From the NCBI GenBank assembly GCA_003212625.1, contig QCPI01000006.1:1-55616 (forward strand): a stretch of DNA of 55,616 nucleotides. The letters run 5' to 3'. This stretch comes from Prochlorococcus sp. AG-436-J02. GTDB taxonomy: Bacteria; Cyanobacteriota; Cyanobacteriia; PCC-6307; Cyanobiaceae. Positions within the stretch are counted from its first letter, which is position 1, and each line of letters begins with the position of its first letter. The notes under the pieces were generated by a model that was given only the letters and a program-made list of their open reading frames with translations, had not been told where the DNA came from and did no database searches. Shown in pieces: positions 16,252 to 23,483 of this stretch. A program made the translations under genes and the position numbers.

Positions 16252-17196
16252 TTAACTTAATTCTCCACCACAACTTGAACCCGATCCAGCTGTACAGCCA
16301 AAGCAATGATTTCCTATTGAGATGGGATTGTTTTCTAACGAGATAAGTGGAATTAGGAGATCATTTAAATGTTGTATATCACCAATTCTTCTCATCCCAA
16401 GTTGTTGGTTGAAATCACAATCATATAAATAGCCTTCCCAATCAACACTAATAGTTGACTTGCACATTACGGATTTAAGGTTTCTTGAATTATGATTATC
16501 CTTAAGCAATTGATTATATGCTTTCAGTTTCCCAATTATATTTAAATATTCCTTATACCTATTTATTGGCATATTAGCTAAAACAAACAAATTTGAGAAG
16601 AAGATACCATATCTTTCTTTTAATTCGCTCCTATATTTATCTTCTAATTCTTTTTGGGATGGTGGTAGTTGTGGACTACTGGGGTTATAAACTAGATTTA
16701 ATATGAGCTCTTTATCTGTAAGACCGTAGCCATAAGAGTTAAGCCTTTTAAGTGCTAAAATGCTTTTTTCAAAAACACCTTTACCTCTTTGTTTATCTAC
16801 ATTATCTTCTAGATAACAAGGGAGGGAAGCTGTTATTTGTACTTTATTTGAGGCTAAAAAACTTGTTAAGTTCTCATGCCCTGGTTCTGTAAGTATAGTT
16901 AAATTACATCTATCCATGACTTCAACATTCATACTACGCACCTCTGTTACTAATTGTTTGAATTTAGGATGTAGTTCAGGAGCTCCTCCTGTAATATCTA
17001 GCAATTGAATATTATTAGCTTTGATAACTTTTGGGATAAGTTTTATAATATCATCGCTCATCATTTCTTTTCTCTTTGGACTAGCATCAACATGACAATG
17101 GCTGCATGCTTGATTACATTTATAGCCTATATTTATTTGCAAAGTTTCAAGATAATCTCTTTTGATTTGGGGAAAGTTTGTTTTAATTATTTCCAT
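16252..17196 (-). CDS. arsS: ArsS-like radical SAM protein (arsenosugar pathway family)
   Basis: Radical SAM enzyme of the ArsS family with the [4Fe-4S]/SAM motif CNQACSHC (C27, C31, C34) and a C-terminal DUF3641-type domain holding VDWEGYLYDCDFN and the terminal cluster-like CFGCTAGSGSSCGG. These two ends together are diagnostic of ArsS, which is proposed to attach the 5'-deoxyadenosyl group to methylated arsenic on the way to arsenosugars. 314 residues, normal. In some bacteria the C-terminal motif contains selenocysteine; here all are cysteines. The usual partner arsM is not next to it. A palindrome at 17223-17243 lies just upstream of the ATG. Confidence 0.88.
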   Translation of the reverse strand: MEIIKTNFPQIKRDYLETLQINIGYKCNQACSHCHVDASPKRKEMMSDDIIKLIPKVIKANNIQLLDITGGAPELHPKFKQLVTEVRSMNVEVMDRCNLTILTEPGHENLTSFLASNKVQITASLPCYLEDNVDKQRGKGVFEKSILALKRLNSYGYGLTDKELILNLVYNPSSPQLPPSQKELEDKYRSELKERYGIFFSNLFVLANMPINRYKEYLNIIGKLKAYNQLLKDNHNSRNLKSVMCKSTISVDWEGYLYDCDFNQQLGMRRIGDIQHLNDLLIPLISLENNPISIGNHCFGCTAGSGSSCGGELS

Positions 17197-17274: not shown

Positions 17275-18474
17275 CTAGAAGTTCTTGGCTAATTGTTTAA
17301 ACCAATCTATATATTCTTCGGGCCCATCATTAATAATCATGTTGAATTTTAATTCATCATTAGGATCGCTAATCCCTGTCATGTCTGAACCATGAATTTT
17401 TGGTCTGATTACTTGATCATTGGAGCTATTGACGAATATTACTTGATTTTCTTTTTTATATGATTCTCCTAATCTTTGAATCAACGTTAAGAAACCTCGA
17501 TCACTTCCACCTCTCATCCAAGATTTCGATTTTTCGTCTTTTGCCGATGTTACGGTATCCCCAACACCAATTAAAAGCGGCATCTGATCACTAGTGATTT
17601 TATCTCTACACAATTTTATTAATGCATTAAGTTTTTTTGGAGCTTCCCTAACGTTGAATTTTTCTCCAAAAGGATAAACCCCAGTTTTATTTGAGATATA
17701 TTTATTTAAGAGTAATAAAAGACCTGCTTCTTTTTTTGCACCATTAATAATAAATTGGATATCAGTTGTACCAAACTCATTTTGAGTTGCATATTTCATT
17801 ATTTCTCTTCCTTCTAGTAATCCTAGGTTTGGCATCATATGTAGATAAAAGGAATTCTCTAAACCAACCTTCTTTGATTCATCTAGAAGATTATTCATTA
17901 TTTTTTGCATAATCAATTGCAAATCTTTTACTTTCGTTAAATCCCTTTTTACGTAGCTAAATATTTCATTAAAGTTTAAGGTAGGAGTAAATCGAGTGTC
18001 ACATATAGCTACCTCAATCAATTTTTTTCTTAAGCTATTCGATATAGTTGGCAGGAATATATTTAATTCAGTATTTAACATTGATTCCATTATATTTGGA
18101 ACTTTTGCTAAAAAGTTTATTTCATTATCATTAAGACCTGGAAAGGACAAATTACTGAATCTATCTTGAAACTCAACTCCACAGGCAGCAAGTCCAGGTA
18201 AATAAAATCCATTTTCTTTTGTGTACGTTTTTGATCCAAGTGCCTTTTCAACTAATCTATTAACGCCTCTTCTTCCTTCATGTTCTCCACAAGTCAAGAC
18301 TGAGAAACTCTCTTTTAATTTTGCAACATTCTTTACGTATTCTTTATTTATTTCCCTTTTCATCGGGTCCTGTACTAATGGAATACATACACCATCAAGA
18401 TCTTGAACTATTAGAATATTTTGTTCATTTATTATAGTGCTTATAACTTCTTCTTTTGTCTTGATCATTTTCAT
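17275..18474 (-). CDS. StpA-like HAD-type phosphatase (glucosylglycerol-phosphate phosphatase family)
   Basis: HAD-superfamily phosphatase resembling cyanobacterial StpA/GgpP, which removes phosphate from glucosylglycerol-3-phosphate to make the osmolyte glucosylglycerol. The nucleophile motif is D25-L-D27 in LIVQDLDGVC; conserved StpA segments include LTCGEHEGRRGVNRLVE, ENGFYLPGLAACGVEFQDR, GTTDIQFIINGAKKEAGLL and LLIGVGDTVTSAKDE. 399 residues, close to StpA. It is divergent from a G3P-dehydrogenase-like and a kinase-like gene. No GT20-type glucosylglycerol-phosphate synthase is in the window, so the phosphorylated substrate may differ. Family call is good; substrate is inferred. Confidence 0.82.
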   Translation of the reverse strand: MKMIKTKEEVISTIINEQNILIVQDLDGVCIPLVQDPMKREINKEYVKNVAKLKESFSVLTCGEHEGRRGVNRLVEKALGSKTYTKENGFYLPGLAACGVEFQDRFSNLSFPGLNDNEINFLAKVPNIMESMLNTELNIFLPTISNSLRKKLIEVAICDTRFTPTLNFNEIFSYVKRDLTKVKDLQLIMQKIMNNLLDESKKVGLENSFYLHMMPNLGLLEGREIMKYATQNEFGTTDIQFIINGAKKEAGLLLLLNKYISNKTGVYPFGEKFNVREAPKKLNALIKLCRDKITSDQMPLLIGVGDTVTSAKDEKSKSWMRGGSDRGFLTLIQRLGESYKKENQVIFVNSSNDQVIRPKIHGSDMTGISDPNDELKFNMIINDGPEEYIDWFKQLAKNF

Positions 18475-18613
18475 TAAAGAAGCCTTTAATTATAATTTTA
18501 GTCTATATCTAATCGATTTACGCTTTTGTTATAGTACTTATACTTAAATAAGGATATAGATAGATATTAATTTATCATATAAATTCTTTTTAAAAGATTT
18601 TCATATTATTGTA

Positions 18614-18619
18614 TATAAT
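18614..18619 (+). promoter_or_regulatory. Candidate -10 element for the 513-aa gene
   Basis: TATAAT 22 bases upstream of the GTG start at 18641 would give a leader of about 15 bases. No recognisable -35 hexamer lies 16-18 bases upstream, which is not unusual in this genome type. Confidence 0.4.
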
Positions 18620-18640
18620 AGTTTTGAATGCAAATACACA

Positions 18641-20182
18641 GTGTTTGAAAAGAATTTAATTAATAGCTTTTTTAATGAGACTTATTCAAGTAAGCATATA
18701 GCCACAAGAATTGATGAGGTTCTGAAAGGAAAAGTAGGATTTTATAGTGTAGGTTTATATCCAGCATCGCTGGCTTATAACTGTGCGATGCATGATAAAG
18801 GTTTAAACATTCTTTTAGCACCTAGAAATGGTAGAGAACTTTTTGGAGCTTTTTCTGATAGGGATCTCGTCGAGATGGATACTGATATAAAAAATAAAAT
18901 TCAATCTATGGCAATTTATAAGGATGATACTTTAAGTAGATATAACACACTTGAGGATTTAATAATTAACTGTGAATTAGTTGTGTTGAGTTCAAATAGT
19001 AAACATATCATAAATGACGTTAACTTAGCATTTGAATTAAGGAGAAAGCTTGATCGAGGAAATGTTTTGATTGCCTGTTTAGTAGGTTCATTTTGTTATG
19101 ATGAAAAATTGAAAGAATCTTTTGTATTATGCGAAAAGTTAAATAAATTAGCTTTCTTTTCAGGATTTCATCGACATGGTGCACTTCGAAACCCATTAGA
19201 TAGTTTTACTGCAAATTTTTGTCATCCTGATGCTATGAATGCAATATTAGGAGCAAAATTATTAAATACCATTTCTCCAAATATACAAGTATCTGGAGGT
19301 GTTCATAATGTTGAAGGTCAATATATAAAAGCAGCTAAAAATGTTTCTTCAATTTTCGCAGGTTTTGGACATACTTTTCATAAGAGTAATCCTGGATTAT
19401 TGCCAACTTTATTAACTCTATTATTAGATCAATGCATAGATCAGGCTGCCTATGTTTCTATGAGACGAGAAGATAGAAATAAATTGTATAAAAAACAACC
19501 TTTTCCTATAACTGAGCTTGGATATGGTGTTCAACTTATAGAAGCTTCCCTTTTAAAAAATGGAGAATTTGTTCAAGTAAGAGATCATACATTTAGTCAG
19601 TTAACCGCAATGGTTGCTGATGTTAGGGGGAGCATGATGTTACCTGTAAGTGGTAGCCCAACCAGAAACTTTCAAGCTGGTGAAGTCTTAGCTGAAAGAA
19701 TGCTTGAATACAAAAGATGTCCCCATGACGTTGAAGAATTTGTTCAGTGGTGTCAAAAATCTGGACTTAAACGAGGAGCTTTAGAGGGGATAAATTCTTT
19801 AAATTATTGGCCATGTATTATCAAAAAATATTCAATACCATTAAATGAATCTTCGATGATAAATCTTTTATATATGTGTATTATGGGTCCTAGAGAAATT
19901 AAAGATGATATATACAATGTTATGACAAATACTAGAGAACTTACCAATTATTGCCAGGAGTCTGTTAACTCGATTAAGAGTAAAACAATATCTAGTTCAC
20001 TTAATAATTTTCATTCGAGACCAGCAATTGATTTTATAACTAAATTATTAACTGAAAAGGATGGACTGTACTTTGAATCAAATGAGACTGAGTTTGATGA
20101 CTCACTAGAATCGGAAAACATACAAATTTATAATAAGGTGATTGATTACATAGAAAAATATTTAACCCATTTCACTGCTTGA
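18641..20182 (+). CDS. Glycerol-3-phosphate-dehydrogenase-like protein, unknown substrate
   Basis: A 513-residue protein distantly resembling NAD-dependent glycerol-3-phosphate dehydrogenase and related 6PGDH-fold enzymes. The Rossmann region reads KVGFYSVGLYPASLAYN (31-47), a degenerate GxGxxG, followed by a binding strand NILLAPRNG. A middle helical domain includes GGVHNVEGQYIKAAKN and GYGVQLIEASLLKNGEF, positions where G3PDH carries its catalytic Lys and Asn. The last ~120 residues are extra compared with GpsA (about 330 aa). Start GTG at 18641. It is followed 10 bases later by the kinase-like gene, so they form an operon, divergent from the StpA-like phosphatase. Function is not known; a dehydrogenase step in a polyol or glycoside pathway is a hypothesis. 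Confidence 0.7.
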   Translation: MFEKNLINSFFNETYSSKHIATRIDEVLKGKVGFYSVGLYPASLAYNCAMHDKGLNILLAPRNGRELFGAFSDRDLVEMDTDIKNKIQSMAIYKDDTLSRYNTLEDLIINCELVVLSSNSKHIINDVNLAFELRRKLDRGNVLIACLVGSFCYDEKLKESFVLCEKLNKLAFFSGFHRHGALRNPLDSFTANFCHPDAMNAILGAKLLNTISPNIQVSGGVHNVEGQYIKAAKNVSSIFAGFGHTFHKSNPGLLPTLLTLLLDQCIDQAAYVSMRREDRNKLYKKQPFPITELGYGVQLIEASLLKNGEFVQVRDHTFSQLTAMVADVRGSMMLPVSGSPTRNFQAGEVLAERMLEYKRCPHDVEEFVQWCQKSGLKRGALEGINSLNYWPCIIKKYSIPLNESSMINLLYMCIMGPREIKDDIYNVMTNTRELTNYCQESVNSIKSKTISSSLNNFHSRPAIDFITKLLTEKDGLYFESNETEFDDSLESENIQIYNKVIDYIEKYLTHFTA

Positions 20183-20192
20183 ATTAAATTAT

Positions 20193-21353
20193 ATGGACTT
20201 TGTTAAATTAAATTTTATAGTCCATAAATTTTTTATTAATAGTAAAGTTTTAAATATTTCTCAGAAAAACTCTGGTCTTATTAATAAAACTTATATTGTT
20301 GAACATTTATATAACGGCATAAAGTCAAAATTTGTTTTACAGAGTCTTAGTAATATCTTTCAATGTCATGAGATTGTTAATACTAATCATAAATTAATAA
20401 CCGACCATATAATAAAAAAGATAAATAATAGTTCTTTGAAATTTGATTACTATAAATGGAAGGTTCCAAGCTTAATAAAATGTGAAACAAATAACCTTTT
20501 TTGGTTCCATTTTGAGTCTGGTTATTGGCGAGCAATGTTATATATAGAAGATGCGGTTAGTTTGGAAAAATTAATAGACAAAAAAATGGCATATCAAGCT
20601 GGTGTTGGTCTTTCTAAATTTCATTTTCTTTGTTCCGATTTTGATTGCAAAAAGTTAGGCAATAGTATTAAAAATTTTCATGATACAAGGTACTATTTAC
20701 AAAAATACAATATGACTCTGGATCAATATAATTCTAATAAATTAGATTACCAAGTAAGTAAAAGAGTTGATAATTTAATAAAAATTTTATCTAATCATAT
20801 TATACTGATTGATAGTATATTACGATCTTTTAGTACTAAAATTACAGATAAAAATATTATTCATGGTGATCCCAAGCTAAGTAACTTTCTTTTCGATATT
20901 AAAAATTATTCAGTTGTTTCTTTGATTGATCTAGATACTGTAAATTCCGGCAATCTTTTATCTGATTTAGCTGACTGTATTCGCTCAGTTTGTAATTTAG
21001 CTGGAGAGAATCCACTACATAAAGATGATGTTTACTTTGATATTGATTCCTGTATGTATTTCTTACAAGGATATTTATCTATAAATAAAAATAAAAATTA
21101 TTCTTTTAGATATCTTCCGGAATTTATTTATTTAATAATCTTTGAATTAACGATTAGATTCTTAACTGATTTCTTGCAATCAAATAAGTATTTCAAAATT
21201 AAATATGAAACTCATAATTTATATAGAGCAGAAGTTCAATATCGACTTCTAACTAGTTTCCTTATCCAAATGCCTACTTTCTCAAAAGAGCTCGATGATA
21301 TTGGGATTTCTTCAAGCTCAAATTTTTACTCAGATGTACAAAAATTGGTTTAG
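20193..21353 (+). CDS. Aminoglycoside-phosphotransferase-fold sugar kinase (NahK-like)
   Basis: Small-molecule kinase of the APH/choline kinase fold. HGDPKLSNFLFD supplies the Brenner motif with catalytic D226 (HGD 224-226) and N231; IDLDT at 245-249 supplies the metal-binding Asp. The N-terminal lobe (SGLINKTYIVEH, then FVLQSLSNIFQ) resembles the N-acetylhexosamine 1-kinase (NahK) subgroup, which makes sugar 1-phosphates. 386 residues. Very AT-rich, with many Asn, Lys and Ile codons. It is cotranscribed with the G3PDH-like gene (10-base gap). The acceptor sugar or polyol is unknown. Confidence 0.8.
   Translation: MDFVKLNFIVHKFFINSKVLNISQKNSGLINKTYIVEHLYNGIKSKFVLQSLSNIFQCHEIVNTNHKLITDHIIKKINNSSLKFDYYKWKVPSLIKCETNNLFWFHFESGYWRAMLYIEDAVSLEKLIDKKMAYQAGVGLSKFHFLCSDFDCKKLGNSIKNFHDTRYYLQKYNMTLDQYNSNKLDYQVSKRVDNLIKILSNHIILIDSILRSFSTKITDKNIIHGDPKLSNFLFDIKNYSVVSLIDLDTVNSGNLLSDLADCIRSVCNLAGENPLHKDDVYFDIDSCMYFLQGYLSINKNKNYSFRYLPEFIYLIIFELTIRFLTDFLQSNKYFKIKYETHNLYRAEVQYRLLTSFLIQMPTFSKELDDIGISSSSNFYSDVQKLV

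Positions 21354-21408: not shown

Positions 21409-23483
<2,075 letters not shown>

Follow-up and report, generated by a model that had tools for sequence, protein, structure and literature searches.

A divergent glycerol-3-phosphate dehydrogenase-like protein encoded beside the salt-tolerance phosphatase StpA is a candidate source of glycerol-3-phosphate in Prochlorococcus

Why would a Prochlorococcus lineage in which no glucosylglycerol-phosphate synthase (GgpS) is found keep the phosphatase of the glucosylglycerol pathway, and what is the large unannotated protein encoded next to it? We address both questions starting from a window of 55,616 nt from Prochlorococcus sp. AG-436-J02, which is contig C6 of a picocyanobacterial assembly that is 54% complete. 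Comparison of sequences and predicted structures suggests that the unannotated gene beside the salt-tolerance phosphatase, here called P2, probably encodes the enzyme that makes glycerol-3-phosphate (G3P) for the membrane lipids of Prochlorococcus.

The three open reading frames recognized in the initial annotation are all present, and in the divergent arrangement described there. The phosphatase StpA (399 aa) is encoded at 17275–18474 on the minus strand, and it faces P2 (513 aa, GTG start; 18641–20182, plus strand) and a kinase of the APH fold (386 aa; 20193–21353, plus strand) across an intergenic region (18475–18640) in which, judging from the gene ends, both promoters presumably lie. The GTG start of P2 is common to 20 Prochlorococcus orthologues, and the closest named relatives are Prochlorococcus single-cell genomes, in which P2 is 76–82% identical. 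Beyond StpA, in the window as in most of the family, comes the gene for an ArsS-type radical SAM protein of arsenosugar biosynthesis (16252–17196, minus strand; TIGR04167, 446 bits). On the other side, before metB, the P2 and kinase genes are followed in most genera by the gene for a conserved 231-aa protein (21409–22104, plus strand, in the window) that matches no Pfam or NCBIfam family. No RNA families were found near the StpA, P2 and kinase genes.

The phosphatase had been described as resembling StpA, and its assignment can be put more strongly. It scores 527.5 bits against the TIGR02399 equivalog, for which the cut-off is 365.5, and matches Pfam Salt_tol_Pase with an E value of 1.4e-167; on its equivalog score we take it to be a true StpA/GgpP, the glucosylglycerol-3-phosphate phosphatase. 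Like StpA/GgpP of Synechocystis PCC 6803, it passes this cut-off and keeps all family-invariant residues, including D25, D27 and G28 of the HAD D-x-D-G motif, which are invariant. Unlike the Synechocystis enzyme, it sits in genomes without GgpS. Consistent with the earlier remark that no such synthase is encoded nearby, ggpS was not found in the window's own partial assembly or in any of nine relatives in its genus (96–100% complete). GgpS was found in 77 of 201 genomes of the family (76 over the cut-off and one fragmentary), and 41 genomes with StpA lack it, including all nine relatives. As these genomes have no GgpS, the known substrate of StpA is not made there by the known route. We also observe that many genomes lacking the partner GgpS encode an intact StpA in which every family-invariant residue is kept. 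When StpA was compared between genomes with and without ggpS for a shift in specificity, no position was fixed in one group and missing from the other. The frequent occurrence of ggpP in Prochlorococcus without ggpS has been described before, together with the speculation that Prochlorococcus GgpP dephosphorylates sucrose-6-phosphate (PMC11505929); our analysis neither supports nor excludes this idea.

StpA and P2 occur together to a striking degree. The same 201 family genomes were searched for each gene, and P2 was found in 100 and StpA in 104, with both in 98, P2 alone in two and StpA alone in six (phi 0.92); all 38 P2 genomes without ggpS carry StpA. The real exceptions to this coupling among near-complete genomes, with P2 but not StpA or the reverse, are G083, G102 and G180, and all three have a canonical GpsA. 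Outside the family but within the phylum, 21 of 22 sampled genomes with StpA are without P2. P2 itself was seen outside the family only in rare genomes such as that of Leptolyngbya cf. ectocarpi, where the orthologue adjoins a gene resembling MFS sugar transporters and not StpA (L051, 293–3454).

The two genes are also physically linked. The order in most genera examined is Fur, ArsS, StpA and then, divergently, P2, in some cases the kinase, the 231-aa protein, MetB and MetA; part of this neighborhood is thus general synteny, and the recurrence of the divergent StpA/P2 arrangement in most genera puts it well beyond chance. In two brackish-type genera (L074 and L105) StpA and P2 are still divergent neighbors though the background order is broken, and there they lie beside ggpS, ABC sugar-transport, TreS-like, GlpD-like and GlpK genes. 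As ggpS and genes for sugar transport adjoin the pair in these two genera, we regard the link to osmolytes as real.

No family in Pfam or NCBIfam matches P2 with a useful score. The two profiles of the canonical G3P dehydrogenase GpsA (EC 1.1.1.94), PF01210 and PF07479, gave no match to P2 over the curated cut-off, and PF07479 was reached by a single one of 34 P2 homologues, with an E value of 0.0087 before correction that lies below any cut-off. HMMER profile searches between P2 and GpsA, run both ways over 1440 ORFs, detected no link, so that the relationship between the two rests on HMM–HMM collinearity and on structure. Profile searches with P2 against PDB sequences returned chance matches only, and no match was found in phage records, plasmids or viral contigs. 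Compared with a diverse GpsA alignment of cyanobacterial, plasmid-borne bacterial and PDB sequences, the P2 profile runs collinearly for 261 columns (253 after trimming), which none of 389 shuffled or unrelated decoy profiles approached (125 columns at most); two further families that share the fold aligned over 21 and 27 columns. The raw score of this alignment is unremarkable (E 0.05–0.1), and some shuffles score equally high.

Conserved P2 residues that match GpsA in this alignment are G175, K233-N234, G241, E292, G330, R342-N343, G347 and E382-G383. Among them, K233-N234 and R342-N343 are invariant and align with the catalytic K-N and the phosphate-binding R-N motifs of GpsA. P2 resembles GpsA, then, in keeping the K-N, R-N...G and E-G positions, in a predicted Rossmann N-terminal domain followed by what is probably an all-helical part, and in occurring where GpsA is absent. 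It differs in its length (513 aa against about 310–340), with long insertions and a C-terminal extension, in having no recognizable profile match, and in several motifs: in place of the GxGxxG dinucleotide-binding loop P2 reads S36-x-G38-x-x-P41, with S36 and G38 invariant and P41 nearly so across the 34 homologues; the second lysine of the TKG motif aligns with V148, a position conserved in only 63%; and an invariant H177-R178-H179 is a cluster of its own.

Structure prediction points in the same direction, at modest confidence (mean pLDDT 56.5 and 58.8, from a shallow alignment). The first model was not good enough to discriminate within the 6PGDH superfamily. The second, of the Leptolyngbya orthologue, has a clear Rossmann N-terminal domain, the only part in which it is better, and a poorly modelled helical domain of low confidence, the part that would bind G3P. 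The best of 1000 chains compared with this second model was Coxiella GpsA (Z 14.4, rmsd 2.8, 169 residues), followed by the G3P dehydrogenases of Dunaliella, human and Plasmodium (227–251 aligned residues). Other enzymes of the superfamily scored about 1 Z lower than GpsA, so the structure favors a G3P dehydrogenase without proving one. With this best match and the collinear alignment, the label of a degenerate G3P-dehydrogenase-like protein in the initial annotation holds.

DsGPDH of Dunaliella salina is a G3P dehydrogenase fused to a HAD phosphatase domain. This osmoregulatory enzyme (PDB 6iuy) is the second-best structural match of the P2 model (Z 13.6, 251 residues), and in both cases a salt-adapted phototroph pairs a G3P dehydrogenase, putative for P2, with a phosphatase of the HAD type. 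DsGPDH is one fused protein, whereas P2 and StpA are encoded by two divergently transcribed genes, the phosphatase being of the StpA family.

The distribution of GpsA bears on the function of P2. Its C-terminal domain (PF07479) was found in 90 of the 201 genomes, and it is present in 22 of the 100 genomes with P2 and absent from the other 78. Among the 130 near-complete genomes, P2 and GpsA were each found in 74, with 20 of the 22 genomes carrying both passing this quality filter, and 128 have one or the other. In the two that have neither (G013 and G073), StpA sits right at the edge of its contig (3324 and 3231 bases), and P2 would therefore lie beyond the break. GpsA, GlpK and GlpD, the last counted without short FAD-motif matches to its model, are all absent from 39 P2 genomes, 26 of which are at least 90% complete. 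All nine relatives from the window's genus have P2 and are without GpsA, glycerol kinase and GlpD. In 30 GpsA-less genomes there was no other convincing PF01210 protein, the matches being partial Rossmann matches. Two PF01210 matches over the cut-off in GpsA-less genomes were rejected as G3P dehydrogenases, since they are nucleotide-sugar dehydrogenases. Bacterial glycerolipids require G3P as their starting block, and thus something must make G3P in the genomes without GpsA.

P2 shows a second pattern among the 90 genomes that do have GpsA. There ggpS is present in 22 of 22 genomes with P2 and in two of 68 without it (P 5e-19, uncorrected for phylogeny), whereas in GpsA-less genomes P2 is found irrespective of ggpS. 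Glucosylglycerol synthesis uses G3P as acceptor (PMC6753628). Where GpsA serves the lipids, P2 is kept only alongside glucosylglycerol synthesis, and a single product, G3P, explains both patterns. The complementarity with GpsA would be shown by any gene that the whole marine clade carries, and so does not by itself point to P2.

We favor the option that P2 is a divergent G3P dehydrogenase originating from the glucosylglycerol pathway, which became the sole source of G3P after the loss of gpsA and was kept after the loss of ggpS, and we put its probability at roughly two in three. We infer that P2, in its substrate, direction and cofactor, would do the job of GpsA, using NAD(P)H to reduce dihydroxyacetone phosphate to sn-glycerol-3-phosphate within a GpsA fold that has diverged strongly. 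It would have arisen or been acquired with the glucosylglycerol pathway as that locus's own source of G3P, which would serve as the acceptor for GgpS, with StpA taking the phosphate off the product. In the marine picocyanobacteria the housekeeping gpsA would have been lost, making P2 the only supplier of G3P for membrane lipids and presumably essential, and ggpS would have been lost in most Prochlorococcus, whereas P2 could not be. Such an order of losses, as we infer it, would account for the survival of P2 in ggpS-less Prochlorococcus, including the lineage of the window, by its being the sole supplier. The initial annotation had proposed a candidate pathway to an unknown osmolyte; its osmolyte link stands in the two genera where ggpS and ABC genes adjoin the pair, while an unknown osmolyte is unneeded for P2, because a supply of G3P for lipids and glucosylglycerol explains the distribution.

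The main point that our favored reading does not explain is the near-perfect retention of StpA beside P2 in genomes without ggpS. P2 and StpA could instead catalyze the two steps of a pathway that leads, without GgpS, to a so far unidentified polyol or glycoside or to glycerol, in which P2 would reduce a phosphorylated keto compound, StpA would dephosphorylate the product or a glycoside, and the G3P for lipids would come from elsewhere. Both the near-perfect co-occurrence, down to the 38 of 38 ggpS-less P2 genomes with StpA, and the invariant StpA residues kept in ggpS-less genomes speak for such a pathway. We nevertheless consider it unlikely, as it would leave 26 near-complete genomes without a source of G3P and gives no reason for P2 always being present where GpsA is absent; moreover, strain MIT9303, which has ggpP but not ggpS, was reported to be unable to make glucosylglycerol (PMC11505929). 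A bolder version of the favored reading would make P2 a separate family of G3P dehydrogenases with a rebuilt active site (the S-x-G-x-x-P loop and H-R-H), and would have P2 and StpA, besides feeding lipids, run an undescribed route from dihydroxyacetone phosphate to a dephosphorylated polyol or glycoside in ggpS-less Prochlorococcus; to this we give only a small chance.

Another possibility is that P2, as an oxidoreductase from this superfamily, acts on an unrelated substrate and was inherited along with the marine clade, so that its complementarity with GpsA is a shadow of the split between marine and freshwater lineages. Profile searches do give P2 no family, any marine-universal gene would yield the same pattern, and presence data from related genomes are not independent. 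This reading nevertheless strikes us as rather improbable, given that P2 tracks ggpS across several genera within the GpsA-bearing genomes, shares GpsA-specific collinearity and residues, and has a G3P dehydrogenase as its best structural match.

The gap in annotation was noted in 2012, when EC 1.1.1.94 was listed among the activities without an annotation in Prochlorococcus and Synechococcus WH7803 (PMC3369817). Another study reported the FAD-type glpA together with glpK from marine strains, gpsA from freshwater ones, and the two dehydrogenases side by side only as a feature of brackish SC5.2 strains (PMC9361551). That study credits marine Synechococcus with FAD-type GlpA and glycerol kinase; most Prochlorococcus-type genomes in our sample have neither. 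We found no proposal of a G3P dehydrogenase candidate for these organisms in the open-access literature searched, which is weak evidence of novelty. P2 offers a concrete candidate for the missing G3P enzyme, and it is conserved in marine Synechococcus as well as across Prochlorococcus, MED4-type and low-light alike. If our favored reading is true, it gives a reason for P2 outliving the glucosylglycerol pathway, and metabolic models and expectations of essential genes would change for very abundant phototrophs.

Finally, the kinase appears to stand outside the P2/StpA system, given its independent distribution. Its described resemblance to N-acetylhexosamine kinase is borne out, the best solved relative being N-acetylhexosamine 1-kinase (NahK; PDB 4wh1, 4ocj) with an E value of 1.4e-26 over residues 13–354. 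It is homologous to NahK over about 340 residues, but as a remote homologue whose sugar specificity may differ, and it is not coupled to P2 and StpA. The kinase was found in 138 of the 201 genomes with a weak link to P2 (phi 0.37). Fourteen of the 100 genomes with P2 lack it, among them every sampled member of genus g18, where both P2 and StpA are retained, and 50 genomes carry it without either of the two. We take g18 to be MED4-type Prochlorococcus. The kinase is also the fastest-diverging of the compared genes (61% identity, against 78–79% for P2 and StpA). The idea first proposed, in which the kinase, the dehydrogenase and the phosphatase would be successive steps of a single osmolyte pathway, has in its favor that the three genes are adjacent in the window's genus and several others, and we consider it highly improbable, as the kinase varies independently, diverges fastest and has a different recurrent neighbor elsewhere. 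Judged by the refuting condition set in the initial annotation, uncorrelated presence of the three genes, the kinase drops out and the StpA/P2 pair stays. In three genomes from different genera an SbcC/SbcD-like pair of ATPase and phosphoesterase lies between P2 and the kinase (L081, 10241–14294; L083; L110), which argues against a P2–kinase operon there. In the genome of L105 and in freshwater genomes the kinase is found elsewhere and is followed by a small protein of an unrelated cluster, c13 (about 180–200 aa), which matches no Pfam or NCBIfam family and presumably resembles DOMON-like proteins. c13 follows or adjoins the kinase in L081, L083, L087, L092, L096, L097, L100, L101 and L106, and together they have the look of a sugar-related unit of their own.
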